Source: an uncultured Lachnospiraceae bacterium
GTDB lineage: Bacteria; Bacillota; Clostridia; Lachnospirales; Lachnospiraceae
Length of the DNA: 64,000 nucleotides
NCBI GenBank assembly: GCA_947652735.1
Contig: CANTEG010000006.1
Span: 93,904-157,903 of the forward strand
Reading direction: 5' to 3'
Shown: piece by piece, positions 7,646-58,573 of the stretch
How the letters are laid out: every line of letters starts with the position of its first letter
How positions within the stretch are numbered: the first letter of the stretch is position 1
Translations under genes and position numbers: made by a program
The notes under the pieces: model-generated
Databases searched by the model: none
Seen by the model: only the letters and a program-made list of their open reading frames with translations
What the model was told of the DNA's origin: nothing

Positions 7646-9295
7646 ATGGTTTATGATCCGGCGAAGCTGGGAACTGAGCTTAATTTATCGCTTGCCGTGC
7701 CACAGGAGGAAAGAAGAAATTCCATGGACTTGGACGTGGGGTACAACAGCTCTTTAGATGAATGGCAGCTTATTATAAGATATACGGGTAATTTGGAAGA
7801 AGTGAGTAAGTCTGTTGGTTTTGGATATACCATTCTGCAAAATAATTATGCGATTATTCGTATCAGAAGTGAAAATATAGAGGAGCTTACCCGCATTCCG
7901 TCCATTATTTTTATAGAAAAGCCGAAAAGCATTTACCTTGAGGTTACAACAGCAGAATCTATTTTAAAAAGAGACGGACTTTTGGGGCAGGGTGTCGTTG
8001 TGGCGGTTATTGATTCAGGCATTGATTACCAGTCAGGTGTATTTATAAATGCCGATGGAACAACCAAGCTGGCAGGAATCTGGGATCAGACATTGCCATA
8101 TAGTGAGGAAGCTTCTAATCCGTATGGTGTTGGAAGATTTTTTACAAGGGAAGAAATAAACAATGCATTAAAAACAGGAGAAATATTACCTACATACGAT
8201 TATTCGGGACATGGGACAGGTGTGGCAAGCATTATTGCAAGGGACGTTCCTGATGCTGGGATTCTTGCCATTAAATTGGATAACAGTAATGTGTCAGGAT
8301 ATCCGAATACAGTGTCCTTAATGCTTGCAATAGACTATGCCGTAAGCTTTTCCCAAAAATATGATTTGCCGATGGTTATTAATTTGAGCTTTGGAAATAA
8401 TTACGGTGATCATGGCTCAAATTCAATGATTGAAGAATATATAGACAGTGTTGCGGACTCTGCCAAAGTAAGTATTGTTACGGGTATGGGAAATGAGGGC
8501 AGAAGTGCCAGACATGCACAAATTATGCTTGGAAATACAGCGTGGCAGTATGTTGATTTTCAGGTGAATCCATACGAGATTGGGATAAATTTACAGATAT
8601 GGAGAGACTTTGTTGATGTGGTTGATATATTTCTCACCACACCGGGTGGAGTTGTGCTTGGTCCGTTTAATTCATACAATGAAGTTATGAGTTTCAATCT
8701 TTCTAGCATGGATATTAATGTTATAAACGGTTATCCCACACCTTACAATAAAAATCAGGAGACATATATATCAATTGCACCGAAACGGGATTATATAGAG
8801 CCGGGAATATGGACGGTTTCATTTAATCCGAAATCCATATTAAACGGCAGGGTTGATTTATGGCTTCCTGTTTCTGAGGGAACCTCATCAGATGTGAGAT
8901 TTATAACACCGTCAAGATATACGACAATGACCATACCTGCTTCCGCAAGAAGTGTAATCAGTGTGGGAGCCTACGATGAACGGCTTCTTGCATATGCACC
9001 GTTTTCAGGCAGGGGGTATTCTATTGACAATCAGGTGAAACCGGATCTTGCGGCACCGGGTGTAAATATACAGGTTGCAAGTCCGGGCGGAGGTTATGCT
9101 ACCGTGTCGGGAACATCCTTTGCTACACCATATGTGTCTGCAAGAGCTGCAAAGCTGATGGAGTGGGGAATCATCATGGGGAACGACCCGTTTATGTACG
9201 GAGAGAAGATTAAAGCAAATTTGATACGTGAAGCTGGTCCTTTACCGGGATATCAGTCATATCCGAATCCTGAAATAGGGTGGGGTGTTTTATAA
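7646..9295 (+). CDS. Subtilisin-like serine protease (S8), Csp-like
   Basis: A 549-residue protease of the S8 family. The catalytic triad is intact: D123 (VIDSGID), H189 (GHGTGVAS) and S491 (GTSFATPY). Residues 1-100 look like an inhibitor-type prodomain. About 300 residues between His and Ser include a beta-rich insert. No signal peptide is visible. This plan (no export signal, prodomain, jelly-roll-like insert) matches the Csp germination proteases of Clostridia, of which active CspB cleaves pro-SleC. No sleC or other spore gene is adjacent, so the germination role is inference. Some S8 relatives of this form occur outside spore formers. Start: ATG at 7646 with a modest GGGTG upstream. Confidence 0.8.
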   Translation: MVYDPAKLGTELNLSLAVPQEERRNSMDLDVGYNSSLDEWQLIIRYTGNLEEVSKSVGFGYTILQNNYAIIRIRSENIEELTRIPSIIFIEKPKSIYLEVTTAESILKRDGLLGQGVVVAVIDSGIDYQSGVFINADGTTKLAGIWDQTLPYSEEASNPYGVGRFFTREEINNALKTGEILPTYDYSGHGTGVASIIARDVPDAGILAIKLDNSNVSGYPNTVSLMLAIDYAVSFSQKYDLPMVINLSFGNNYGDHGSNSMIEEYIDSVADSAKVSIVTGMGNEGRSARHAQIMLGNTAWQYVDFQVNPYEIGINLQIWRDFVDVVDIFLTTPGGVVLGPFNSYNEVMSFNLSSMDINVINGYPTPYNKNQETYISIAPKRDYIEPGIWTVSFNPKSILNGRVDLWLPVSEGTSSDVRFITPSRYTTMTIPASARSVISVGAYDERLLAYAPFSGRGYSIDNQVKPDLAAPGVNIQVASPGGGYATVSGTSFATPYVSARAAKLMEWGIIMGNDPFMYGEKIKANLIREAGPLPGYQSYPNPEIGWGVL

Positions 9296-10071: not shown

Positions 10072-12612
10072 ATGAAAAAAATATGTATAGGAATTTTGGC
10101 TCATGTTGATGCTGGAAAAACAACCCTGTCTGAGGCGATTCTCTACAGTGCAGGTGTTTTGAAAACATTTGGCAGAGTGGATAAAAGAAATACATTTTTA
10201 GATAACGAAGACATTGAGAGAAAAAGAGGGATAACCGTTTTCTCAAAACAGGCAAGGTTCACATATATGGATGTGGAATATGTTTTGCTGGATACACCGG
10301 GACATGTGGATTTTAGTGCAGAGATGGAGCGGACGCTTCAGGTCCTTGACTATGCAATTTTGGTTATAAGTGGGTCTGAGGGAATACAAAGTCACACAAG
10401 AACATTGTGGAAGCTTCTAAAGGCTTACAATATACCCATATTTATATATGTTAACAAAATGGACATGCCCGATGTGACAAAGGAACATGTCCTTGAAAAT
10501 ATAAAAGCATCCTTTGGCGATGAATGTATTGATTTTTCAAGTGGAGAATTTTCCACGGATGCTTATGAATGCATGGCAATGTCTGATGAACAGCTTCTTG
10601 AAAAATATTTAAACGGATATTCCGTATCAGATAAGGATATAAAGGCACTTATAAAGAATAGAAAAATTTTCCCCACATATTTTGGATCGGCACTTAAGCT
10701 TGTAAGTGTTGAGGAATTGCTTTTGGGTATCAGTAAATATTCGGAATTATCTCATTATGGAAGTGATTTTTCGGCAACCGTATTCAAGATATCAAGAGAT
10801 GAGAAAAACAACCGTCTGACCCATATGAAGATAACAGGCGGATGCTTAAATATACGTGATATCATAGGTGAAGATAAGGTATCCCAGATACGTCTTTATT
10901 CAGGAGAAAAATATGAGACGGTGACATGCGTTGATGCAGGAAATATATGCACTGTACTTGGATTAGAACATACGAAGGCAGGGGAACTGTTAGGTGATGA
11001 CAGTGGTACTTCAAGACTTCCGATTATAGAGCCTGTTCTTAAATATATCATGCTTGTCCCTGATGGAATTGATGCAGGAAAAATGTATCCTGATATCGTC
11101 CGTCTTGGAGAGGAAATTCCTGAACTTGACGTTTCATGGGATGAGAAAAATAAACAGATTATTGTAAAAATAATGGGGCTTGTCCAGCTTGAGATTATAA
11201 CTTCCCTTGTTGAAAAAAGATATGGCTTTTGTCCTGGCTTTGATATGGGGCAAATCGAGTACAAGGAGACAATAGCCGAAAAGGTAGTGGGGGTTGGACA
11301 TTTTGAACCGTTAAGGCATTATGCAGAGGTTCATGTTATGCTGGAACCGGGAGAGCAGGGGAGCGGTGTGTCGTTTGACGTAAGCTGTAGCACTGATGTT
11401 TTGTCCTCAAATTGGCAGAGACACATTATTTCCTGTCTGAGGAGAAAACTCCACAGGGGTGTACTGACAGGTTCACCACTCACGGATGTTAAAATAACCC
11501 TTATCAACGGAAAGGCTCACGATAAACATACGGTAGGAGGTGACTTCCGTCAGGCTGCATACAGAGCAGTGAGACAGGGATTAATGAAAACAAAGTCTGT
11601 ACTTTTGGAGCCGTATTACGATTTTGAACTGGTGCTTCCTGCCGATTTACTTGGGCGTGCAATGACGGATCTTGATATGCTCGGATGCTCAATGAAAGAC
11701 CCTGTCATAGATGGTGATACGGCATTGATTAAAGGAAGCGGACCAGTTGTTACACTCAGGGAATATCAGGAAAATATAAACGAATATACAAGAGGACTTG
11801 GAAGCATTTCCTGTTTGCCTGGTGGCTATTTTGAGTGTCATAATCAAAATGAAATAATAGATACATGTGGGTATGACCCTGAGGCCGATTTGCATAATCT
11901 GTCTTCCTCCGTTTTTTGTGCACACGGAGCAGGATTTATTGTGCCGTGGTATGAGGTAGAACAATATATGCATGTGTCTGATGATATTCCTGATTCTGAA
12001 ATAAAGGACTACAGTGATGTATATAAGAGCAGAAGTGAATTTGATTATTCCATAGGAACTGATGAAATTGACGAGATAATCAATAAAACGGCATATGCCA
12101 ACCAGAGTGTAAAAAGAAGTTACCAAAAGAAAAAGGTTCATGCACCTGAGTATAAAACCCATTTTGGCAAGCCGCTGCCAAAGCTCCCGAAGCTTCTTAT
12201 GGTGGATGGATACAATGTTATTTTTGCATGGGAGGATTTAAAGGAGCTGGCAGGTCTTAATATGGATTCGGCAAAGGACAAGCTTATTTCAGTATTGGCA
12301 AATTACAGGGGAATGACTGACTACAGTATAATTGTGGTATTTGATGGGTATAAATTAAAAAATAACCCCGGCTCCGAAAAAACAACAGATGAAATAACGG
12401 TTGTATATACAAAAGAGGGGGAAACGGCAGACCAATATATAGAAAAGTTTACTAATTCCAACCAAACGTGTTATAATATAACAGTTGTAAGCTCTGACGG
12501 ACTGATACAACAAATAACAAGAGGACAAAACTGTATGGTGTTATCCTCAAGAGAGCTTAAGAAGATTATCGATGATGAACAGAGTCGTCTTCGTGACCAG
12601 TATAATTTATAA
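10072..12612 (+). CDS. TetM/EF-G-like ribosomal GTPase fused to a Rae1/YacP-type NYN nuclease domain
   Basis: An 846-residue protein. Residues 1 to about 640 follow the plan of ribosomal protection proteins (TetM/TetO) and EF-G: P-loop AHVDAGKT (10-17), RGITV (52-56), DTPGHVD (74-80), NKMD (128-131), then domains II-V. Residues 708-846 form an NYN/PIN-like domain as in Rae1 (YacP), the B. subtilis endonuclease that cuts mRNA in the ribosomal A site; acidic residues D711, D758, D787 and D809 are candidates for metal binding. TetM alone is about 640 residues, so the nuclease is a true addition. A spacer of about 60 charged residues links the parts. A role in ribosome rescue or A-site mRNA cleavage is inference; drug resistance is not shown. 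Thioredoxin follows after 12 bases. Confidence 0.85.
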   Translation: MKKICIGILAHVDAGKTTLSEAILYSAGVLKTFGRVDKRNTFLDNEDIERKRGITVFSKQARFTYMDVEYVLLDTPGHVDFSAEMERTLQVLDYAILVISGSEGIQSHTRTLWKLLKAYNIPIFIYVNKMDMPDVTKEHVLENIKASFGDECIDFSSGEFSTDAYECMAMSDEQLLEKYLNGYSVSDKDIKALIKNRKIFPTYFGSALKLVSVEELLLGISKYSELSHYGSDFSATVFKISRDEKNNRLTHMKITGGCLNIRDIIGEDKVSQIRLYSGEKYETVTCVDAGNICTVLGLEHTKAGELLGDDSGTSRLPIIEPVLKYIMLVPDGIDAGKMYPDIVRLGEEIPELDVSWDEKNKQIIVKIMGLVQLEIITSLVEKRYGFCPGFDMGQIEYKETIAEKVVGVGHFEPLRHYAEVHVMLEPGEQGSGVSFDVSCSTDVLSSNWQRHIISCLRRKLHRGVLTGSPLTDVKITLINGKAHDKHTVGGDFRQAAYRAVRQGLMKTKSVLLEPYYDFELVLPADLLGRAMTDLDMLGCSMKDPVIDGDTALIKGSGPVVTLREYQENINEYTRGLGSISCLPGGYFECHNQNEIIDTCGYDPEADLHNLSSSVFCAHGAGFIVPWYEVEQYMHVSDDIPDSEIKDYSDVYKSRSEFDYSIGTDEIDEIINKTAYANQSVKRSYQKKKVHAPEYKTHFGKPLPKLPKLLMVDGYNVIFAWEDLKELAGLNMDSAKDKLISVLANYRGMTDYSIIVVFDGYKLKNNPGSEKTTDEITVVYTKEGETADQYIEKFTNSNQTCYNITVVSSDGLIQQITRGQNCMVLSSRELKKIIDDEQSRLRDQYNL

Positions 12613-12624
12613 AGGAGAAAAACA

Positions 12625-12927
12625 ATGACATATTTAAATGATGATAATTTTGAAGAAGAAGTGATAAAAAGTGATAAGCCGGTGCTTGTAGATTTTTATG
12701 CAGACTGGTGTGGACCATGTAAAATGATGGGACCCATTATTGAGCAGATTGCATCGGAAACAGACGATGTAAAGGTATGCAAATGTAACGTTGATAATGC
12801 ACAGGAGCTTGCAGTGACATATAATGTTATGTCCATACCGACACTTATTTTATTCAAGGACGGTGAAGTATCGAAACGTTCCGTGGGTGCAATTCCGAAA
12901 CAGTCTATTCTTGATATGATGCAGTAA
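12625..12927 (+). CDS. trxA: Thioredoxin
   Basis: A 100-residue cytoplasmic thiol-disulfide reductant with the classical WCGPC active site (C29, C32) and the cis-proline SIPT motif. AAAGGAG lies 7 bases before the ATG. It follows the fusion GTPase gene by 12 bases, so the two are probably on one transcript. No thioredoxin reductase is nearby. Confidence 0.95.
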   Translation: MTYLNDDNFEEEVIKSDKPVLVDFYADWCGPCKMMGPIIEQIASETDDVKVCKCNVDNAQELAVTYNVMSIPTLILFKDGEVSKRSVGAIPKQSILDMMQ

Positions 12928-12956
12928 TTAACAAAGGACTTAGTATTGGGAATGTG

Positions 12957-12979
12957 TCAAGTTTTCATAGAAAACTTGA
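12957..12979 (+). other. Intergenic hairpin after trxA
   Basis: A short perfect stem-loop (TCAAGTTTTC paired with AAAACTTGA) without a T tract. It may be an RNA 3'-end stabiliser or processing site. Confidence 0.35.
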
Positions 12980-13049
12980 TATGTGGCGTCAGCCCATTTG
13001 CCAAAGGAAAATAAGGAATGGATGATGTTTGGGTCAAAGGAGGAGTTAT

Positions 13050-13931
13050 ATGGATATACAGGGTTTTTTTGCCCGCTTGTTAAAATCACTTAAGAGAACA
13101 GGAAAAAAGATAAGAAGATTTTTTAAGAGATATACAAGGCTGCTTGTCAGGCACACAAAGGCCGGGGATTACAGTGTGCTTATTTATACAATTACAGTGC
13201 TTGTTGTTTTTGCGTTGATTATAGTCCTTCTTGTAAATATAATTAAGCCTGATAAAAAGGAAAAAAAGAAAGAGCCGGTGATAGCGACAAAGTCAGATGC
13301 AGTCACTGAGCTAAAGGATCCAAATACAGAGCTTCGTGCGGAGTGTCAGGCGATATATGATAAAAATAAGGAACTGCTTTTACTTGTGAATACAAAGACT
13401 GCAATTCCTGAAAATTATGAATTTGAGCAGCATACGTTAAATAGTGGAGCGATTATTGACGAGCGTGCTTATATTGATTTGTACAGAATGCTTAAGGCGT
13501 GCAATGATGCAGGATACCATTACAATATCATTTCTGCATACAGGGATCAGGAAACCCAGCAGGGAGTCATTGACAGAAATGTTCAGGAGCTTATGGACAA
13601 GGGCTTAAGTCAGGAAGAAGCATTTGAAAAGACAATGGAAACCGTGCAGGCAGTGGGACATAGTGAGCATGAGACTGGGCTTGCCCTTGATATAACAGAG
13701 GAAGGCATTTATAGTTTAACTGAGGATTTGGAGTCAAATAAAACTATAAAATGGTTTACTGATAACTGTACACAATATGGTTTCGTAGTTCGTTATCCTA
13801 AGGATAAGGCTGACATAACAGGGATAAGCTATGAGCCGTGGCATTTCAGATATGTAGGCGAGGAAGCTGCCCAATTTATGACTGAACATAATTTGACACT
13901 GGAGGAATTCCACAGCCTTTTAATTAATTGA
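13050..13931 (+). CDS. VanY-family D-alanyl-D-alanine carboxypeptidase (M15B)
   Basis: A 293-residue protein. The start at 13050 is chosen because AAAGGAGG is 6 bases upstream; a TTG at 13029 is an alternative. The N-terminal 40 residues are very basic, then one membrane segment (about 43-65) anchors the enzyme, and the catalytic domain lies outside. Zinc-site residues match M15B peptidases: S205-x-H207...D214 (SEHETGLALD) and the EPWHF motif with E262 and H265. It trims the terminal D-Ala from peptidoglycan stem peptides. No van resistance genes are near, so a housekeeping wall role is likely. Confidence 0.88.
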   Translation: MDIQGFFARLLKSLKRTGKKIRRFFKRYTRLLVRHTKAGDYSVLIYTITVLVVFALIIVLLVNIIKPDKKEKKKEPVIATKSDAVTELKDPNTELRAECQAIYDKNKELLLLVNTKTAIPENYEFEQHTLNSGAIIDERAYIDLYRMLKACNDAGYHYNIISAYRDQETQQGVIDRNVQELMDKGLSQEEAFEKTMETVQAVGHSEHETGLALDITEEGIYSLTEDLESNKTIKWFTDNCTQYGFVVRYPKDKADITGISYEPWHFRYVGEEAAQFMTEHNLTLEEFHSLLIN

Positions 13932-13960
13932 TATGAGTTCAAATTAACCGGGAGAGAGAT

Positions 13961-14947
13961 ATGAGTACAAGCAGTAGCAGAAGAAGAAGAAAGAGAATTA
14001 ACAGGCAGATACAGATTATTTGCAGATTATTATTTGTTATAATTTTAGTGCCGACTGTCATAATCAGTGCCCTGAATTTATTTTCAAAGAAAAATAAGTA
14101 TCGTGATACGGCGTTAAAGTATTATAACGAGGGAAACTACGAGGAAGCCATAACATATTTTGATAAATCACTGGATGCCAAACAATGGTTTTCCAAGAAG
14201 AAGGATGTGGATACGCTTCTGTATAAGGCAGATGCACACATACATTTGTCAGAGTATTACAAGGCATATGAGGCATACGACACAATACTTACAAAATATA
14301 AAAAGAGATATTATGATGAAGATAAGGTGAATGAGCGTAGTGTGATTGCCATAACCCTTGACAGTTATTCAAACGGAAATTATAAGGATGAGGCTTTGGT
14401 GTTTGCCAAGCTGGTGGACTATGGCTATGAAGAACTTAGTCTATATGCAGGACACTGTTATGAAATGCAGGGCGATTATGATAACATGGTGAAGTACTAT
14501 GACATTTACACAGGAAAATTTGGATTCAGCCAGAACCTTGCAAACCGATATGCACTATTGTATATGCAAAGGAAAGATTATAACAAGGCACTGTCATACA
14601 TAGAGTCGAATCTCGACAAGGATAGTGAAGACAAAAAAGATTTGCTTTATAATCAGATTTTGTGTTACATAGAGCTTAGCGAGTATGATAAAGCTTATAG
14701 TCTGGCGGAAAATTTTAAAAATCTGTACGGGGATGACAGCAGAAGTGAGGAAATTTATGAGTTCGTCTATACGAGAGTCAATCCGAATCCTTATGTTGTG
14801 CATGATATATATGATTTAAATGATTCTATCGAGGAACCGACAGACGTTTCGCCATCCGATGATGGAGAAATATATGATGCAGATTCACCAACGGATTCGA
14901 CAATTACAGATGATGATGTTATATATGATGCAGACGAAACAAACTGA
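13961..14947 (+). CDS. Membrane-anchored TPR protein
   Basis: A 328-residue protein with an Arg/Lys-rich start, one membrane segment (about 20-42) and several tetratricopeptide repeats (for example YYNEGNYEEAITYFDKSL and MQRKDYNKALSYIE), probably outside the cell. The C-terminal 50 residues are acidic and low in complexity. A TPR domain suggests a scaffold in wall or secretion work; the neighbour is a D,D-carboxypeptidase. GGGAGAG precedes the ATG. After the stop codon, the +1 frame continues with an acidic sequence of the same style, see the separate entry. Confidence 0.75.
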   Translation: MSTSSSRRRRKRINRQIQIICRLLFVIILVPTVIISALNLFSKKNKYRDTALKYYNEGNYEEAITYFDKSLDAKQWFSKKKDVDTLLYKADAHIHLSEYYKAYEAYDTILTKYKKRYYDEDKVNERSVIAITLDSYSNGNYKDEALVFAKLVDYGYEELSLYAGHCYEMQGDYDNMVKYYDIYTGKFGFSQNLANRYALLYMQRKDYNKALSYIESNLDKDSEDKKDLLYNQILCYIELSEYDKAYSLAENFKNLYGDDSRSEEIYEFVYTRVNPNPYVVHDIYDLNDSIEEPTDVSPSDDGEIYDADSPTDSTITDDDVIYDADETN

Positions 14948-15002
14948 TGATGTGCTGGTCAACTCGGATGAGGCAGAGCTTGCAAATAAGATGTTTAAAT
15001 AA
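14946..15002 (+). other. Possible out-of-frame C-terminal extension of the TPR gene
   Basis: If the frame is moved by +1 at the stop codon (AAC TGA T), 18 further codons (DDVLVNSDEAELANKMFK) follow before a TAA at 15000-15002. They fit the acidic tail before them. This may be a small indel, a sequencing error or, less likely, +1 frameshifting at TGA as in prfB. Confidence 0.35.
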
Positions 15003-15043
15003 TTAGTTACAATAATAATGTTATGTAAAGTAGATGGTGACAT

Positions 15044-16273
15044 ATGTATAATACAGACAAGGAAATTGAAAAGGTAATACTGATTGCCGTTGATTTGGAC
15101 AAGGGCGAGGATATAGATGCCAACTTAGACGAGCTGGAGGAGCTTGTAAAAACTGCGGGTGCTGTTGTCGCAGGAAGACTCATTCAAAAAAAGGAAGCCG
15201 TTGACAAAGCAACCTACATAGGTTCGGGAAAAACGGAAGAGCTTAAGGAGCTGGTTTCCGAGCTTGGTGCGTCAGGCATTGTTTCCGATGATGAGCTAAG
15301 TCCTATGCAAATGAAAAATCTGGAAGAAATTTTAGACACAAAAATAATGGACAGAACGATGATTATTCTTGATATATTTGCCAAGAGAGCTACGACCCGT
15401 GAAGGTATTATTCAGGTGGAGCTTGCACAGCTTAAGTATCGTTCCTCAAGGCTTATCGGTATGGGAAATGCACTTTCACGTCTTGGCGGCGGTATCGGAA
15501 CAAGGGGACCTGGAGAAAAAAAGCTTGAGATTGATAGAAGAATTATCCGTGACAGAATCGGGCAGCTTCAAAAGGAGCTTGAGGATGTCAAGCAGCACAG
15601 AGAGGTTATGAGAAAACAGCGCATGTCGGGCAATCTTCCAATTGTATCGATTGTAGGCTACACGAATGCTGGCAAATCTACACTCTTAAACAAGCTTACC
15701 CTTGCAGGTGTCCTCGAGGAGGATATGCTGTTTGCAACCCTTGACCCTACGTCAAGAGGCTATAAGCTTACAAATGGGCAGGAAATCATTATCACGGATA
15801 CAGTTGGATTTATTAAAAAGCTGCCTCATCATCTGATTAATGCGTTCCGTTCTACATTGGAGGAGGCAAAATATTCAGACATTATTTTGCATGTGGTTGA
15901 TATATCAAATCCGTGTGCAGATAATCACATTACTACGGTATATGAGACACTCAGCGGTCTTGGTGTTGAAAATAAGCCGGTTATTACGGCATTTAATAAA
16001 ATTGATAAGGTTGAAACAATTCCTGTGATAAAGGATTTCAAGGCAGATCATGTCGTATATATTGCTGCTAAACAACAGATTGGCTTTGAAGAACTGATTG
16101 ATGCCATAACGGACGAGGTAAATAAGAGCAGGAATTATATTGAAACACTTGTACCATATACCGAGGCGGGTATCATAAACAAAATCCGCAAAACGGGAAG
16201 CATACTTGAGGAAGATTACAGAGAGGATGGAATATATATTCGGGCATATGCAGACAAAAGCCTTGATATATAA
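15044..16273 (+). CDS. hflX: GTPase HflX
   Basis: A 409-residue ribosome-associated GTPase that splits stalled or hibernating 70S ribosomes. The N-terminal HflX domain includes the glycine-rich GGGIGTRGPGE loop (148-158). The G domain has GYTNAGKST (205-213), DTVGF and NKID. It heads a close-packed run: hflX, then the rRNA methyltransferase 8 bases later, then the SDR gene overlapping. With the ribosome-linked GTPase-nuclease fusion upstream, this part of the window is rich in translation functions. Confidence 0.95.
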   Translation: MYNTDKEIEKVILIAVDLDKGEDIDANLDELEELVKTAGAVVAGRLIQKKEAVDKATYIGSGKTEELKELVSELGASGIVSDDELSPMQMKNLEEILDTKIMDRTMIILDIFAKRATTREGIIQVELAQLKYRSSRLIGMGNALSRLGGGIGTRGPGEKKLEIDRRIIRDRIGQLQKELEDVKQHREVMRKQRMSGNLPIVSIVGYTNAGKSTLLNKLTLAGVLEEDMLFATLDPTSRGYKLTNGQEIIITDTVGFIKKLPHHLINAFRSTLEEAKYSDIILHVVDISNPCADNHITTVYETLSGLGVENKPVITAFNKIDKVETIPVIKDFKADHVVYIAAKQQIGFEELIDAITDEVNKSRNYIETLVPYTEAGIINKIRKTGSILEEDYREDGIYIRAYADKSLDI

Positions 16274-16281
16274 ATATATAC

Positions 16282-17649
16282 ATGGATTTACCGAAAAGCT
16301 ATGAGGAAAATATGAGAACGCTCCTGAAAGAGGAGTTTGACGAATATAAAAAATGTCTGGATGAACCAATGCATCACGGTATTCGGATTAACACGCTCAA
16401 AATATCAGTTGAGGATTTTATGAAATTAAGTCCGTTTCACTTAAAAAAGATTCCGTGGTGTGAAAACGGATTTTATTATGATGATAAGACGGACAAGCCA
16501 TCTAAGCATCCGTATTATTATGCAGGACTTTATTATATTCAGGAGCCGAGCGCAATGACTCCTGCTTCTGTTTTACCTGTAAGCAAAGGAGACAGGGTGC
16601 TTGATTTATGTGCGGCACCGGGAGGAAAGTCGACAGAGCTTGCTGCAAAGCTGGGCAGGACAGGTATACTTGTCTCAAATGATATCAGCGCATCAAGGGC
16701 AAAGGCACTTCTTAAAAATCTTGAAGTGTTCGGTGTTCCCAATTCACTGATTATCAGTGAGGCACCATACAAGCTGGCAGACAGGTTTCATGAATATTTT
16801 GACAAAATATTGATAGATGCGCCATGTTCCGGGGAAGGTATGTTCCGAAAGTCCCAGTCAATGATAACGGCTTGGGAAAACAATAAAAATCAGTTATTCG
16901 TTGATATACAAAGAGATATTTTAAAGTACATCGTTGACATGCTAAAGCCGGGGGGAAAAATCGTATATTCCACTTGTACATTTTCACCGCTTGAAAATGA
17001 ACAGTCAGTGGAATACATGCTTTCCCTTGACGCAAGGCTTAGCCTATGTGAATTTGAAAAATATGCATTGTTTGATGACGGGCATCCGGAGTGGTCGCTG
17101 TCAGGAAATGAGGAACTTAAAAAATGTGCAAGAATATGGCCTCACAAGGTAGACGGAGAGGGTCATTTCGTGTGCCTTGTAAAAAAGGACGGTATATGTG
17201 ACAACAGCGGGAACTTCGGAAACTACAGGATGAAAAAGGTTAAATTAAGTGTTGAAGCTTTAGAATTTTTGAAACGGTTGGGGAATAAATTTGATACTTC
17301 GAGAATAGAAATGTCAGATGATAAGCTTTATTACATTCCTGAGAGCTTTCCAGATGTCAAGGGAATGAGAATATTAAGGTGCGGGCTGTTCTTAGGAGAA
17401 AATAAGAAAAACAGGTTTGAGCCGAGCCAGTCCCTTGCCATGACGCTGACGAAGGATGATTTTGATAATGTGATAGACATAGCATGTGATGATATAAGGG
17501 TAATGAAATACCTTAAGGGTGAGACAATAGAAGCCACGGGAAAAGACGGATGGGCACTTGTTCTTGTTGACGGATATCCCTTGGGTTGGGGAAAGCTCAA
17601 TCAGGGTATACTGAAAAATAAATATTTACCAGGATGGAGGTTAATGTAA
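16282..17649 (+). CDS. RsmF-like 16S rRNA cytosine-C5 methyltransferase
   Basis: A 455-residue SAM-dependent methyltransferase of the NOL1/NOP2/Sun family. The SAM loop is DLCAAPGGKS (108-117). The two cysteines typical of m5C enzymes are present: C182 in DAPCSGEGM and C232 in STCTFSP; one attacks the base, the other helps release. The C-terminal 170 residues fit the RsmF/PUA-like RNA-binding extension. The target base cannot be fixed from sequence. No clear ribosome site lies before the ATG, 8 bases after hflX, so it may be translationally coupled. Confidence 0.88.
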   Translation: MDLPKSYEENMRTLLKEEFDEYKKCLDEPMHHGIRINTLKISVEDFMKLSPFHLKKIPWCENGFYYDDKTDKPSKHPYYYAGLYYIQEPSAMTPASVLPVSKGDRVLDLCAAPGGKSTELAAKLGRTGILVSNDISASRAKALLKNLEVFGVPNSLIISEAPYKLADRFHEYFDKILIDAPCSGEGMFRKSQSMITAWENNKNQLFVDIQRDILKYIVDMLKPGGKIVYSTCTFSPLENEQSVEYMLSLDARLSLCEFEKYALFDDGHPEWSLSGNEELKKCARIWPHKVDGEGHFVCLVKKDGICDNSGNFGNYRMKKVKLSVEALEFLKRLGNKFDTSRIEMSDDKLYYIPESFPDVKGMRILRCGLFLGENKKNRFEPSQSLAMTLTKDDFDNVIDIACDDIRVMKYLKGETIEATGKDGWALVLVDGYPLGWGKLNQGILKNKYLPGWRLM

Positions 17650-48142: not shown

Positions 48143-48282
48143 GCCAAAAGATTAAAAGATTAAGGATTGTTTAAGATTTCAATGTTCATATTGTATTGTA
48201 AAGTGTTATGGTGTAAAATGTATGCGGTTTATAGCATCATCTTATAATACGAAAGAAAGGGCTAACATAGCGTTGCTTGTGT

Positions 48283-49617
48283 ATGGATATGAAAAAGATT
48301 AATTTAAATTCTGATAAAGTATTTTATTTGGCGATTATTTCCATATGTTTTTTATTGTTTTTTTCATGGTCAATCATTATTCCGTATAACCATGCCCCGG
48401 ACGAGCATATGAGATATGCAATTCCTGATTTTATATACCAATACGGCAAACTGCCCGTCGGCGATGATGCACGGATACGGAATGAAATCTGGGGTATTTC
48501 TTATGGCTTTACGCCCATTTTTTCCTATATTATCAGTGCCTTATTTATGAAAATAGTGAGTATTTTTTCCACAAGTGCAGGTGCATTACTTATCGCTGCA
48601 CGTTTTACAAGTGTTTGCTTTTCTATAGGAACGGTTATTTTTTGTATTAAAATTGGAAAATTGCTTTTTGATAAGGTATATGCCAGACTGTTTGTCTGCT
48701 CCATCGTTTTCCTGCCGCAATTTGTTTTTATTTCATCCTATGTAAATAATGATGCATTTGGCATATTTACGGTGAGCTGGATTATTTATGCAATGCTAAA
48801 GGCAAAGGCAAACAAATGGAGGCTTTGGGATTGTATATTTCTTGGAATAGGAATCGGTCTTTGCCTTATATCCTATTACAATTGCTACGGCATCATTATC
48901 GTGGCTCTGATTTACTCAGTTAAATCGGTCATTGACGATAAACAGATTGAATGTAAATTACAGTTTATTTTAATGCGGGTTTTGTGGGTAGGCATTGCCG
49001 CATTTCTTGTTGCAGGTTGGTGGTTTATCCGTAACTTCATTTTGTATGATGGTGATTTTCTTGGTATGCGTGCAAGCAGTGAGTGCGGGGAATTATATGC
49101 ACAGGATGAATTTAAGCCATCCAACAGAAGCACCCCGCAGAGAATGGGCATAACCCTGCCGCAAATGCTTGTCGGTATGCGCTGGCTTTACCTTTCCTTA
49201 AAAAGCTTTGTAGGGCAGTTTGATTACTTGAGTCTTTCTTTAAACAAATCGAGCTATTATATTATATGGACGTTATTTGCACTTGGATTTTTGGGATACT
49301 TTATTGATATTCATAAATGGCGTAAGGATAAGGAAAAGTACAATAACGCTTTGCTTCGAGTCATGATGATTTTAATGTGTGCCATAACTATGTCGCTCAG
49401 CATTTATTATTCCTATGTCAATGATTTTCAGGCTCAGGGCAGGTATCTTTTGCCGATGTTGATTTCCTTAAGTGTACTGTTTGTGCATAGCTGGTACAAG
49501 CTGGCAGACAAGCTGTTCCATGAAAAACGAAATTATGTGGCGGTATGTTTTATTTGTATTTATTTTATGACAATTATCAGTGCTACCGTGGATGTCATTA
49601 TACCTGCGTATCTTTAA
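48283..49617 (+). CDS. DUF2142-type membrane protein, likely GT-C glycosyltransferase
   Basis: About 445 residues with some eleven membrane segments. Near the N-terminus an extracellular loop has HAPDEHMRY, like the acidic PDE-H motif of DUF2142 and other GT-C enzymes that use polyprenyl-phosphate sugars. The start is uncertain (48283 or 48289). A TATAAT at 48243-48248 may be its -10 box. It opens the cluster that includes aminotransferase, acetyltransferase, GT2 and EmrE-like flippases, so it may be the final transferase on the outer face. Confidence 0.7.
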   Translation: MDMKKINLNSDKVFYLAIISICFLLFFSWSIIIPYNHAPDEHMRYAIPDFIYQYGKLPVGDDARIRNEIWGISYGFTPIFSYIISALFMKIVSIFSTSAGALLIAARFTSVCFSIGTVIFCIKIGKLLFDKVYARLFVCSIVFLPQFVFISSYVNNDAFGIFTVSWIIYAMLKAKANKWRLWDCIFLGIGIGLCLISYYNCYGIIIVALIYSVKSVIDDKQIECKLQFILMRVLWVGIAAFLVAGWWFIRNFILYDGDFLGMRASSECGELYAQDEFKPSNRSTPQRMGITLPQMLVGMRWLYLSLKSFVGQFDYLSLSLNKSSYYIIWTLFALGFLGYFIDIHKWRKDKEKYNNALLRVMMILMCAITMSLSIYYSYVNDFQAQGRYLLPMLISLSVLFVHSWYKLADKLFHEKRNYVAVCFICIYFMTIISATVDVIIPAYL

Positions 49618-53311: not shown

Positions 53312-56300
53312 ATGAGAAGAAAACTGAAAAAACTTGGCTGTGCAATACTGTGTATATGTCTGCTGATAATGAATACACCAAGCCCTATGTCTTATGCAGG
53401 AAACACGGAACAATATGCCACAGATTCGGATGCAACCTATATGGATGCAACTTATACGGATGCCGAAAATACAGATGTTACAGAGACCGTCAGTATGGCA
53501 ACAGATACAAATGTGAAAGATATTTATACTGCAACTGCCACGGCAATCGATGCGTTGCTATATGCAGCGGCTCCGGATATTCCAGAGGGTGGGTATAGCA
53601 TTGAGATTAATTCCCAAAACGATTGGAACAATCTGTTTACCCATACAGCAGGTGATGGCAGTGGGTGGACCAGTTCAGGAACGTCAACAGCAATATACAT
53701 CGAAAATACAAATCCGGTAGCCATTATTTTAAACGCTGATATTACTTTATCTTCCAACACTACCTTAGTTTGTCAGCAGGTTGATGGTGTTCAAAAGGAT
53801 TTTCTACTTTATGGTAACGGACACAGTATAGATACAGATGGACATATATTATCCCTTGTGGCAAATACCATTGCAATAGAGAATACACATATCAAAAACG
53901 GAAAGCTGTATGTGCAAGGGCATATCAGATTTCGCTGTACAGACAGTCAGTTTTCCGCTGCGGCAGTTGAATTATATACAAACGCTGTAACAGAAAGAAC
54001 GTATATTACAGGATGTGAATTTACTGATTGTCCGGAACCGTGCATTTGGTCAAAGGGTGCACCATGCCCTGTCAGTATCTCTGATTGCAATATGGATAAC
54101 TGCGGACTTTTATTCAAAGCTACAAACGACCCATGCAGGGTAAGCTTTTCTGGCATTAAAGCAAAAAACTGTACGGGAACCGTTCTTGGACAGACGACAG
54201 CAGATTCCACAGCTACCCCTTATATTATTGAATCAATATCCAATTGTGAGCTAAGCACCTCACAGTCAGGAAAAATTGCGATTGATCATACCGCTAGTGC
54301 GGTAGGAGAAATTACAGGCTGTACGATTACAGGCTTTGATACGGGAATCAAGCTATATGGATGTAATGTTACTTCTGTATCTGATATTGATACACTCACA
54401 ATCAGCGATACAACAATTACGGATTGTATTACTGGACTTCACACTTGGTATTTGTCAGCGTATGAAAATGCAATTATTTCAAACCTTACTATGGAGGCAC
54501 GGGAGGGTGTTTCTGACACAGTCGGATATAAGGGTGATGGAAGTTTGACGTTGAAAACCTTTCTATCAGTTGATTATGACTTTAGTCAGATGCCTCAGAT
54601 AAAGAACTGCCATATTACAGGCTTTGATACGGGTATCAACTTAAATTTATGCAGAGCTGTAGTATCGGATTGTGAGATATCAGATTGTGCGTCAGGAATT
54701 AATATAACAAGCGATGCAGTTGCCATCGTAGACACACTATTGACAGCAAGGGCTTCAGTATATTCAGTTGGTGTTACAACAAATGCTGTATGTTATCTGA
54801 TAGATTGTGACATCAATGATTTTAACGTTGGAAGTGATTTACATGCCTCAAGTGATACGACAGTTATTAGCTGTAGGTACCAAAACAAGGACACAAATCT
54901 CATAGGTGCTTATCAAACATCCGTCTATGATACAAGCTTTATCGGCAGCGAAAAATCTGTACTTATGAGAGGTGGTACATCATATTTGTACGACTGTGTT
55001 GTAGAGGGTGATCCTGATACAACAAAGTTTGGGGTTTCCATGGAATCAAGTGCAAATACGCTACATATGTACAGCATGGATCGCCCTTATTATTCTCCTC
55101 ATAACGGAGTTTATGATAATCTGAAGCAATATACTGACAGGAACGTGAATGATGGAAAATCTGAAGTTTTTAATTGTGAGACAGGAATTGACTCTACAAG
55201 AGTCGTGGATATTGCGGATACACATGTACATGATTGTGGAACCGGTATGAAATTATTGGGCAGTACTTACTCTTACGGCAATAACCTGGTCGAAGACTGT
55301 ACTAACGGAATGGAAGTTCAGAGCTTGTTTAAAAATATGGGTAATACAAGTACACCTAGCTTTACGGATATATGCGCGGATACAATCCGTAACTGTTCCA
55401 ATGATGGTCTGAACGGCTATTATATTACAGCAGATCCAGTGGAATGGAAGAATCGGCTGGAAATATATAATTGCGGCAATTATGGTATAAAAAACACTGG
55501 AAACTTAACGAGTGCAACCGTTGATATACATGACTGTAAAACGGGTATTTACATGACAGAGACTGCGAGTAATACAATTCTAGGTCCTGAATCTAAGGTT
55601 TATGATAACCTGGAATGGAATGTATATAATGATTCTACGAGTACTTATTCACAATTTATCATTCAAGGTTTAGAAGGAACGCTTACCAGAGGGGCAATTG
55701 GCAACGTATATACTAAAAACAATGCTGTCATTGGTGTCAAAGATTTATATAGTGATGACAGTGTGTATTATTTAGGGGCAGACAGCGGAATGTATATATT
55801 CAGCGTGGATAATTTATACGACACAGTAGTTTTTGACACAATCGATTCAGGATATACAATTGGCAGAAGGGTCGCGGTGTTGTCCACTGATATTACCTCG
55901 CAAATGTTTGCAAAAAAAGAAGGTTTTGTAATATCAACTGAGGTGGATGGCAGCACTACCTATGCAGTTTTTGCAGCAGGCTGTAACGTAACCTACGATG
56001 TGACGACAAACGGAGGTGATACCTTTAGCGGTGGAGATTTGACACAATTTAGCTATTTAAGCGGAGATGATGTCGATTTAACCTATACCGCTTCTAAGAC
56101 GGGATATGAGTTTGTGGGCTGGAATACAGACCAAAACGCAACAGTAGGACTTACTACACTTACAGCGGAGACAGAAGATATTACCTTATATGCCATATAC
56201 AAAAAGACGACTTATATCAACTATCATACATATGATACCGCATCGGATTACAGAACTACCGTTGACTTTTACAACAATCAGGATGAGATAGAGTGTGGGC

Positions 56301-57076
56301 TGGCTGTATATAATGCAGGCGGAAATAATACCTTTGCCGGATATGTCCTCGATGAGGATGCAACTGTTTCTTCTGCTGATGATTTGATGCAGGCAGGAGA
56401 TAGTGCAACAGTTTCTCCTGACGGCTTAGATGTTTACTGTGTGTATGCAAAACAAGGACGGTTGGATTATCTGAAAAAGGACGGTACAATTCTGAGTACG
56501 GAAAGAATAACCGTTTATCAGGTAAGCTCGGATAATAAGAATTTTGTGTATACCATAAAAGCAGGGGAGTCGATAGAAGGCTTTATCTTTACAGGATGGA
56601 AGGATAAAGACGACAACAGCTTTGTTGCAGGTAATACCCTCAGTACGGAGGATGACTTTATTGTTTTGACACCTGTTTACGAGGAGGATGAAGAGCCAAG
56701 CACAGAAGATACAACTACGGAAGATACGACCACAGAAGATACAACTACAGAAGATACGACCACGGAGGAGCCTACCACTGAAACACCGACTACAGAGGCA
56801 GTGACCACTGAAGCACCAACTACAGGAGCGTCGACTACAGAGACACCTACCACTGAAGCGTCAACTGCAGAAACACCGACTACAGAGACTTCAATCACAG
56901 AGACACCTACTACGGAGGAAACTACCAAAGCACCGACCACAGAAACAACAACCACGGAAACACCAGATAGTCCTAAAACAGGAGATAGTACAAATCCAAT
57001 CGGTGTTATTGGACTTGGAATTTTGTCTCTCTTAGGCATATTTGGATTGTCCTTGAAAAACAAAAGGAACAATTGA
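53312..57076 (+). CDS. Cell-wall-anchored beta-helix surface protein with Thr-rich stalk
   Basis: A 1254-residue secreted protein. A signal peptide (basic RRKLKK, hydrophobic stretch, PMSYAG) ends near residue 30. About 170-780 are many short repeats of beta-helix type (repeated 'ITGCTITGFDTGI' and 'DCxxGI' patterns). About 890-950 and nearby are InlB/Listeria-Bacteroides repeats (YEFVGWNTD, FIFTGWKDKD). From about 1130 a Thr/Glu/Pro stalk (TTEDTTTED, TTETPTTE) leads to a sorting signal SPKTGDS, a membrane segment and KNKRNN. Sortase should link it to the wall. The ligand, perhaps a glycan or host surface, is unknown. No sortase gene is in the window. Confidence 0.88.
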   Translation: MRRKLKKLGCAILCICLLIMNTPSPMSYAGNTEQYATDSDATYMDATYTDAENTDVTETVSMATDTNVKDIYTATATAIDALLYAAAPDIPEGGYSIEINSQNDWNNLFTHTAGDGSGWTSSGTSTAIYIENTNPVAIILNADITLSSNTTLVCQQVDGVQKDFLLYGNGHSIDTDGHILSLVANTIAIENTHIKNGKLYVQGHIRFRCTDSQFSAAAVELYTNAVTERTYITGCEFTDCPEPCIWSKGAPCPVSISDCNMDNCGLLFKATNDPCRVSFSGIKAKNCTGTVLGQTTADSTATPYIIESISNCELSTSQSGKIAIDHTASAVGEITGCTITGFDTGIKLYGCNVTSVSDIDTLTISDTTITDCITGLHTWYLSAYENAIISNLTMEAREGVSDTVGYKGDGSLTLKTFLSVDYDFSQMPQIKNCHITGFDTGINLNLCRAVVSDCEISDCASGINITSDAVAIVDTLLTARASVYSVGVTTNAVCYLIDCDINDFNVGSDLHASSDTTVISCRYQNKDTNLIGAYQTSVYDTSFIGSEKSVLMRGGTSYLYDCVVEGDPDTTKFGVSMESSANTLHMYSMDRPYYSPHNGVYDNLKQYTDRNVNDGKSEVFNCETGIDSTRVVDIADTHVHDCGTGMKLLGSTYSYGNNLVEDCTNGMEVQSLFKNMGNTSTPSFTDICADTIRNCSNDGLNGYYITADPVEWKNRLEIYNCGNYGIKNTGNLTSATVDIHDCKTGIYMTETASNTILGPESKVYDNLEWNVYNDSTSTYSQFIIQGLEGTLTRGAIGNVYTKNNAVIGVKDLYSDDSVYYLGADSGMYIFSVDNLYDTVVFDTIDSGYTIGRRVAVLSTDITSQMFAKKEGFVISTEVDGSTTYAVFAAGCNVTYDVTTNGGDTFSGGDLTQFSYLSGDDVDLTYTASKTGYEFVGWNTDQNATVGLTTLTAETEDITLYAIYKKTTYINYHTYDTASDYRTTVDFYNNQDEIECGLAVYNAGGNNTFAGYVLDEDATVSSADDLMQAGDSATVSPDGLDVYCVYAKQGRLDYLKKDGTILSTERITVYQVSSDNKNFVYTIKAGESIEGFIFTGWKDKDDNSFVAGNTLSTEDDFIVLTPVYEEDEEPSTEDTTTEDTTTEDTTTEDTTTEEPTTETPTTEAVTTEAPTTGASTTETPTTEASTAETPTTETSITETPTTEETTKAPTTETTTTETPDSPKTGDSTNPIGVIGLGILSLLGIFGLSLKNKRNN
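56698..56960 (+). repeat. Low-complexity Thr/Glu/Pro stalk repeats
   Basis: Fifteen-base units coding for EDTTT run in tandem at 56707-56766, then degenerate T-E-x-P-T units. Such tracts vary in length by slippage between strains. Confidence 0.85.
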
Positions 57077-57523: not shown

Positions 57524-58573
57524 ATGGCTGACTATACTTATCATGAACAAAATGAAATGCAAAATCTTGATTATATCAGAGGTATTTGTGACGAACTCCC
57601 CATTTATGTAAAACGGTTTGTACGTGGTATTCAACAGTCGAAAGCTTCACGTACACAGCTTGGCTATGTCCGGGATTTAAAAACATTTTTTGAATACATA
57701 TATGAGTCTTATGACAAACAATCGTTTGACAGCTTAAAGGACATATCTCTTGATGTTTTAAATGACATTGATTCTATGTTTATTGAGGATTACCTTGACT
57801 ATTTGCAAAAATATTCTAAAAACGGCCGTATTTACACAAACGGCAAGGCTGCAATAAAGCGTAAATTAACAAGTTTAAGAATTTTTTACGCATATTTGTA
57901 CAAGAATGACCTTGTAAGCCAAAATCCACTTGTTAAGGTTGAAATGCCCAAGATACGCGAAAAACAGATTGTCCGTATGGAACCAAATGAGGTTGCTGAA
58001 TTCCTTGATACAGTTGAATTTGGCAATCATTTAACCGATAAGCAATTACAGTTTCATTCCAAATCAAAAAACCGTGATTTAGCCCTTTTAACGCTTATGT
58101 TAAGCACAGGTATCCGTATATCGGAATGTGTCGGTTTAGATATTAAAGATGTAGATTATGATAAAATGTCAATTAAGGTTACAAGAAAAGGCGGCAAGGA
58201 AGCCATTGTATATTTTAGCGATGAGGCGGCTGAGCCTTTAGCTGTTTATATGGAGGAACGCAAGAAAATAACGCCTGAAAAAGGTCATGAAAATGCCCTG
58301 TTTTTGTCTTCCCAACGCAAACGAATAGGTGTTCGTACAGTTGAAAACATGGTTAAAAAATATTCTGCCTGTTCTGTGCCGTTAAAGCATATTACACCGC
58401 ATAAGCTCCGTAGTACCTACGGTACGTCACTTTATCAGGAAACTGGTGATATTTATCTTGTTGCTGATGTTTTGGGACATACAGATGTAAACACAACCAG
58501 GCGTCATTATGCCGATATTGACGAAAATAGGCGGAGAACTGCTAGAAATAAGGTACAACTTCGGGAAAAGTAA
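57524..58573 (+). CDS. Tyrosine recombinase (XerC/D-like)
   Basis: A 349-residue site-specific recombinase. The N-terminal SAM-like core-binding domain spans about 30-130, and the catalytic set is complete: R198 (TGIRISE), K222 (TRKGG), H293-x-x-R296 (HKLR), H319 (LGHT) and nucleophile Y329 (RRHY). TACGGAGG precedes the ATG. It could be the chromosomal Xer enzyme or the integrase of a small element; no excisionase, phage gene or flanking att repeat is seen. It lies between a surface protein gene and an ABC exporter, in the accessory part of the window. Confidence 0.88.
   Translation: MADYTYHEQNEMQNLDYIRGICDELPIYVKRFVRGIQQSKASRTQLGYVRDLKTFFEYIYESYDKQSFDSLKDISLDVLNDIDSMFIEDYLDYLQKYSKNGRIYTNGKAAIKRKLTSLRIFYAYLYKNDLVSQNPLVKVEMPKIREKQIVRMEPNEVAEFLDTVEFGNHLTDKQLQFHSKSKNRDLALLTLMLSTGIRISECVGLDIKDVDYDKMSIKVTRKGGKEAIVYFSDEAAEPLAVYMEERKKITPEKGHENALFLSSQRKRIGVRTVENMVKKYSACSVPLKHITPHKLRSTYGTSLYQETGDIYLVADVLGHTDVNTTRRHYADIDENRRRTARNKVQLREK

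Follow-up and report, generated by a model that had tools for sequence, protein, structure and literature searches.

Domain architecture of the fusion gene

The window analysed here is a stretch of 64,000 nucleotides from an uncultured Lachnospiraceae bacterium, in which one forward-strand frame joins a translational GTPase of the EF-G/TetM type to a nuclease domain of the Rae1/YacP type. The features of this gene, together with its neighbour HflX, are the following.

10072..12612, + strand: whole fusion gene, 846 aa plus stop, ATG start
10072..11847, + strand: EF-G/TetM-type domains I-V (residues 1-592)
10099..10125, + strand: P-loop AHVDAGKTT (residues 10-18)
11518..11550, + strand: domain IV loop III (residues 483-493), HDKHTVGGDFR; TetM/TetO counterpart YSPVSTPADFR
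11848..11979, + strand: subfamily-specific C-terminal extension (residues 593-636), SVFCAHGAGFxV.W....MH, with CHN immediately N-terminal
11980..12189, + strand: linker (residues 637-706)
12190..12609, + strand: NYN_YacP (Rae1) nuclease domain (residues 707-846)
12205..12207, + strand: active-site Asp 712 (= Rae1 D7), by alignment
12343..12345, + strand: active-site Asp 758 (= Rae1 D53), by alignment
12430..12432, + strand: active-site Asp 787 (= Rae1 D81), by alignment
12496..12498, + strand: active-site Asp 809 (= Rae1 D104), by alignment
15044..16273, + strand: HflX, a genus-level neighbour downstream of the fusion

The first-pass annotation of this DNA had read the N-terminal part as a TetM/EF-G plan with intact G motifs, and this is borne out by Pfam, by structure matches and by the motif alignment. 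GTP_EFTU is found at residues 4-222 (166 bits), followed by EF-G_D2 (233-307), EFG_IV (393-507) and EFG_C (510-592); the closest solved structures to the whole protein are TetO (4v6v, E 7e-74) and TetM (3j9y, 1.5e-72); and the motifs AHVDAGKTT, RGIT, DTPGH, NKMD and GSAL are all intact. Both the G motifs and the domain plan that mark the EF-G/TetM superfamily are thus present, EFG_III (321-385; 22.2 bits, cut-off 27) being the one domain to fall under its cut-off. After domain V the GTPase subfamily carries an extension marked by CHN and SVFC.HGAGF.V.W....MH, of which the part at residues 593-636 is found in none of the 8 outgroup rows (EF-G and protection-type). Residues C589, H590, C616 and H634 (span 589-634, about 11836-11973) are strongly conserved in the subfamily, and possibly form a metal site.

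The Rae1/YacP likeness of the C-terminal domain, likewise proposed at first pass, holds as well: NYN_YacP (PF05991) matches residues 709-844 with 143 bits against a cut-off of 24.6 (E 1.1e-41), and in the last 196 residues a Rae1 fold is recognised through 5mq8 and 5mq9 at E 7e-21, or 1.9e-40 with a 14-sequence profile, the sole other structure match being unrelated (E 0.014). As to the acidic residues named in that annotation, 758, 787 and 809 stand, whereas 711 does not, the first aspartate being D712. Between the two halves, pLDDT is below 50 across residues 640-702, a 63-residue disordered linker, and the placement of the GTPase half relative to the nuclease half is undefined in the model (pTM 0.60).

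Atkinson 2015 is older than the Rae1 paper (Leroy 2017). As an architecture the fusion has been known since 2015, when Tet proteins of ten Clostridiales species were described as having acquired a YacP-like NYN RNase domain, with RNase activity and antibiotic resistance proposed for the product (Atkinson 2015, PMC4342817). In the available part of that paper the architecture and the bacterial group are identical to those of the present fusion, and the same part holds no analysis of its origin, of Rae1 replacement, of loop III or of the tail. An earlier linking to Rae1 may exist, for example in Condon 2018; a literature search not extending to Leroy 2017 or Condon 2018 (Rae1 distribution) found no other paper on the fusion, nor experiments on a fused protein.

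Distribution of the fusion

In its own genome (2.77 Mb, rated 100% complete), the single PF05991 match is the fusion itself. The wider family was sampled with 140 genomes from 139 genera, each at least 95% complete, and 130 of them have PF05991. The domain lies in a single frame of at least 846 aa in 118, and six further fusions are cut off at a contig end or have a frame that is shifted or shortened (G448, G476, G512, G316, G254, G497), bringing the total to 124/140; it is free-standing in six (G310, G238, G303, G453, G435, G462). The expectation raised at first pass that genomes with the fusion would lack a separate yacP is thus confirmed, in the own genome as in the family sample. PF05991 is missing from the remaining 10, and in these the GTPase is missing too at E 1e-60 among the matches listed, so the fusion is dispensable.

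A GTPase orthologue was counted in 128 of the 140 family genomes, 124 fused and four split, and all 128 also have the NYN domain, which in 124 of them is the fusion itself. Among the less regular cases, the GTPase copy of G303 is a shortened frame, the fusion of G256 is diverged (32% over residues 1-263), G435 has the nuclease without the GTPase, and G462 has only a distant GTPase match (32%).

The class sample of 146 genomes holds 55 fusions by count, of which 50 occupy a single long frame and 5 are split into pieces or have a broken frame, a free-standing NYN_YacP in 44 genomes and an unfused GTPase orthologue in 8. In the phylum sample a fusion frame appears in 17 of 249 genomes, 11 of the 17 being labelled as outside the class, with the NYN part seen for two (G061 and G519). 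Names met in the genome scan include Lachnospiraceae, Pseudobutyrivibrio, Merdimonas, Lawsonibacter and Oscillospiraceae. One genome, G611, carries two unfused GTPase paralogues (L184, L185) together with a free-standing yacP.

Origin of the fusion and fate of free-standing yacP

A tree of the GTPase part was built from 71 selected sequences (42 fused, 21 unfused, 8 outgroup) by a quick search with SH-aLRT as the only support measure. All 42 fused sequences fall into one clade (SH-aLRT 100) together with four unfused ones nested within it, from L. salivarius, two Bifidobacterium and Collinsella (L162, L093, L096, L097). Sixteen other unfused sequences form a neighbouring group (support 88), L077 branches outside both, and the protection-type outgroup falls outside the subfamily groups. 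The simplest reading of this topology is one fusion event, after which the four nested GTPases lost the nuclease. Multiple fusion events were considered and rejected: the GTPase tree needs 2 changes (one fused clade, one nested unfused group) and the NYN tree 3, of which only 1 is forced by starred branches. The NYN tree, also a quick search with SH-aLRT only on selected rows, does not contradict a single fusion.

In B. subtilis, rae1/yacP is co-transcribed with yacO/rlmB, according to the available text of PMC6613710. Free-standing yacP varies in its surroundings: in G549 and G611 it lies directly between rlmB and a sigma-factor gene, in G238 it follows rlmB and is separated by 1.7 kb from the sigma factor, and in G046 its neighbour is the sigma factor; for G310, neither of these neighbours was found within the 11 kb taken. 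The own genome has instead cysS, a Mini-III-like gene, rlmB, 44 bp and the sigma-factor gene, with no yacP between; the Mini-III-like and sigma-factor genes we take by position to be mrnC and sigH. The empty interval, set against the rlmB-yacP-sigma factor order elsewhere, argues that the fusion replaced free-standing Rae1. Gene order and trees support, at the level of sequence comparison, a history in which an ancestor of these Clostridia would have had rae1/yacP joined to the 3' end of the GTPase gene and the free-standing yacP lost from its original operon behind rlmB, and the fusion is real, conserved and apparently of single origin. Downstream of the sigma-factor gene of the own genome (L207, 7960-10023) lies a frame of 687 aa that carries dockerin and cadherin-like domains.

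Active site and tail of the nuclease domain

D712, D758, D787 and D809 are aspartate in 66/66 distinct fused domains of the alignment and in 18/18 distinct free-standing ones, B. subtilis Rae1 included, so that a loss of the acidic residues in most homologues, which would have spoken against a nuclease, is not what is seen. The C-terminal tail, taken here as typical of YacP/Rae1 and not as defining, behaves differently. The fusion at 10072..12612 has 37 residues after the last aspartate, against about 65 in a typical PF05991 domain, and its nuclease domain is some 28 C-terminal residues shorter than its free-standing relatives; these have 65-67 residues there in 16 of 17 cases and 142 in the remaining one, and most of their tails end in an LEKxR-like motif. 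Tails shorter than 60 residues occur in 25 of 66 fused domains and in 0 of 17 free-standing ones, and 20 of the 66 are below 50, part of the 66 being best-scoring PF05991 loci and therefore biased toward long domains. The class sample was drawn without regard to score; there, a stop-free PF05991 match extending at least to position 159 was counted in 44/44 free-standing domains and in 21/55 fused ones. Plotted on a tree with 42 fused sequences (25 short, 17 long), tail length needs only three changes, related genomes not being independent.

A tail change of B. subtilis Rae1, R166P, is among suppressors interpreted as loss of function in the part of PMC6613710 available. That so many fusions have lost the tail hints that part of the ribosome docking may have passed to the GTPase. 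Within the genus, the GTPase, the extension, the linker and the NYN part are all under purifying selection (dN/dS 0 to 0.26, seven pairs, dS exceeding 1 in some, which makes those values unsure). In G462, a genome without the GTPase orthologue, the free-standing NYN_YacP (L071) has a long, repetitive Lys/Ser-rich C-terminal tail.

The GTPase half compared with tetracycline protection proteins

Tetracycline ribosomal protection proteins carry SPVSTP in loop III, which in TetM and TetO reads YYSPVSTPADFR. The fusion has HDKHTVGGDFR in its place and so lacks the SPVSTP that marks tetracycline ribosomal protection. Its pattern, HxKHTxGGDFR, recurs in 40/42 fused and 19/21 unfused members of the subfamily, and SPVSTP is found in loop III of 0/63 sequences, the four exceptions to the pattern (L099, L164, L077, L162) included. 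It is with the tip loops of domain IV that Tet proteins are described as dislodging the drug (PMC4342817, in part).

The NCBIfam model tet_protect scores 420.9 bits on the fusion against a cut-off of 775, the other listed Tet models are also below theirs, and the identity of TetB(P) to the subfamily is only 34%. By such sequence features the GTPase half is a separate, non-Tet subfamily of EF-G/TetM-type translational GTPases, although the names it bears in public records vary between 'translation factor GTPase family protein' and 'TetM/TetW/TetO/TetS family tetracycline resistance'. The role on drug-bound ribosomes that the first-pass annotation had envisaged loses weight, since the TetM loop III is absent and the fusion is near-universal in the family.

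Gene neighbourhood

The gene upstream ends 19 bp before the fusion gene, and the thioredoxin gene begins 12 bp after it. Genes for tet(M) have a leader upstream, for which there would be no room in the 19 bp. The genes 3' of the fusion (12625-17649) are of thioredoxin, VanY-type carboxypeptidase, TPR, HflX and RsmF type, HflX with three genes between it and the fusion. The order fusion, VanY, TPR, HflX, RsmF is kept in 8/8 other genus genomes with long flanks, and thioredoxin follows the fusion in 4 of these 8. Outside the genus, HflX and thioredoxin were found at 0/34 fused loci, whose sequence downstream of the GTPase part extends to at least 5.6 kb in 12 and to 2.5 to 4 kb in the others, with a maximum of 7 kb. 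HflX had been put forward at first pass as a neighbour that also acts on stalled ribosomes; as a neighbour it stands within the genus and fails as a general one, and a link confined to the genus lends mild support only.

Matches to thioredoxin, VanY, TPR and HAD around related loci come from the own genus only. Elsewhere CspB lies near the fusion at L082, RsmF adjoins the gene in L090, and weak SDR matches occur in L084 and L184; when the flanking frames of 41 loci were clustered, only a few families recurred (FHA-type, kinase-type and others), each at 4 to 6 loci and in differing positions. Upstream of the HAD gene of the window lies a homologue of Csp-type germination proteases (7646-9295), made up of a CspB prodomain and a subtilase; one of this type also occurs close to the fusion in some members of the genus and in L082. 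The window further holds a 1254-aa frame (53312-57076) and a 446-aa frame (48277-49617), both without a Pfam match at E 1e-10, and a recombinase of the phage integrase family (57524-58573).

Unfused orthologues of the GTPase

Both Bifidobacterium genomes (L093, L096), whose GTPase comes from inside the fused clade, have no NYN_YacP match genome-wide, and PF05991 is absent in 4 of the 8 class-sample genomes with an unfused GTPase. That orthologues occur in genomes without PF05991 indicates an independent role for the GTPase, and the fusion might be a loose one. In B. subtilis, to our knowledge, free Rae1 is active with no GTPase of this kind. The GTP-driven delivery of a nuclease proposed at first pass has accordingly lost ground, and is at most inferred: the linker is disordered and the GTPase has orthologues where NYN_YacP is missing.

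A partnership in trans between unfused GTPase and free Rae1 was tried as a candidate and rejected, PF05991 occurring in 4/8 genomes with an unfused GTPase (38-45% identity) and in 37/80 without a GTPase match at E 1e-80; G526, G608 and G631, with weak GTPase matches (34-35%) and all with PF05991, were left out of both counts.

On the L. salivarius megaplasmid pMP118 (L162, 3529-5920) the unfused orthologue adjoins rpsN (S14), which lies on the opposite strand. In the available parts of papers on this species, one strain is reported without resistance genes and another with intermediate tetracycline sensitivity, tet(M) and tet(L) being called by a tool; the role of the GTPase subfamily is settled by neither.

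Discussion

Taken as a whole, the fusion is probably a housekeeping, ribosome-targeted mRNA endonuclease, in which Rae1 has been joined to a non-Tet GTPase. Rae1 is a ribosomal A-site endoribonuclease (PMC6613710, in part) and depends on translation (PMC10100781, in part); how so small a nuclease reaches the A site of selected ribosomes is the question that surrounds it, and the fusion ties it to a factor whose relatives enter the A site. By homology to EF-G and TetM, the GTPase half would bind the factor site, with the HxKHTxGGDFR tip of domain IV facing the decoding centre, while the NYN half, on its flexible linker, would cut mRNA in or beside the A site of paused ribosomes, as its Rae1 homology and its kept active site lead us to infer. 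Rae1 and domain IV would be rivals for the A site, which is why the two halves are expected to alternate. In one order, GTP hydrolysis and the retreat of domain IV would let the nuclease enter; in the other, the nuclease would cut first and the GTPase would then clear or split the ribosome.

The former order, carried to its end, would make of the fusion a no-go decay system in one protein, in which the GTPase probes the A site, GTP hydrolysis swaps domain IV for the nuclease, and the Rae1 tail has become superfluous in many lineages because the GTPase does the docking; it is offered here tentatively, as a proposal that may well be wrong.

Less likely still is that the halves are independent, with a GTPase that works as an EF-G-like factor and a NYN domain that is an ordinary Rae1, simply carried along, for instance for shared expression. 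The 63-residue disordered linker would suit such an arrangement, as would the four nested unfused GTPases without NYN and the two Bifidobacterium genomes without PF05991; against it, the fusion has persisted from one origin in 124/140 family genomes, all 128 family genomes with the GTPase have the NYN domain (though in 124 this is the fusion itself), and a tail of at least 60 residues, kept in 17/17 free-standing domains, is missing in 25/66 fused ones, which hints at functional dependence. It is rather improbable that the order is reversed, with the nuclease acting first and the GTPase then recycling or splitting the ribosome on the cut mRNA, even if the EF-G-like plan and the conserved histidine H483 at the tip in loop III fit it, and even if EF-G recycles together with RRF (PMC4342817, in part). 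That the protein is a chromosomal tetracycline-resistance ribosomal protection protein, to which the RNase adds a resistance mechanism as Atkinson 2015 suggested (PMC4342817, in part), is very improbable: TetO and TetM are its nearest solved structures and NCBI gives some subfamily members the TetM/TetW/TetO/TetS resistance name, but tet_protect is far below its cut-off, SPVSTP is missing in 63/63 subfamily sequences, the fusion is near-universal in the family, the 19 bp gap is too short for a tet(M)-like leader, and at least 13 genomes have, beside the fusion, a protein of 643-644 aa (31-32% identity), the single one whose loop was read (L080) having YYSPVSTPADFR. A 644-aa frame is also present in G462, which has no fusion.

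To sum up, the sequence evidence makes ribosome quality control a more likely explanation of the fusion than drug resistance. In a large bacterial family Rae1 usually takes this fused form, and the fusion is a core gene there; members of this conserved subfamily sometimes carry tetracycline-resistance labels in public records, which calls for caution. It offers a testable model of GTP-controlled mRNA cleavage and, if the tentative one-protein scheme is true, a no-go-decay machine would be the standard form of Rae1 across a large part of Clostridia.

Among known systems, TetM and TetO (3j9y, 4v6v) share with the fusion the EF-G-like five-domain plan and the G motifs at about 27-32% identity, whereas the fusion is without their SPVSTP loop III, their C-terminal extension differs, and they have no nuclease. 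The unfused orthologues of L. salivarius pMP118, Bifidobacterium, Neobacillus and Intestinibacter belong to the GTPase subfamily of the fusion (41-49% identity) and mostly have its HxKHTxGGDFR loop, yet carry no NYN domain. Conversely, Rae1/YacP of B. subtilis (5mq8, 5mq9) has the NYN fold and the four aspartates in common with the fusion but is free-standing, with no GTPase attached. The logic of a GTP-controlled cleavage of mRNA, as modelled here, resembles that of eukaryotic no-go decay.
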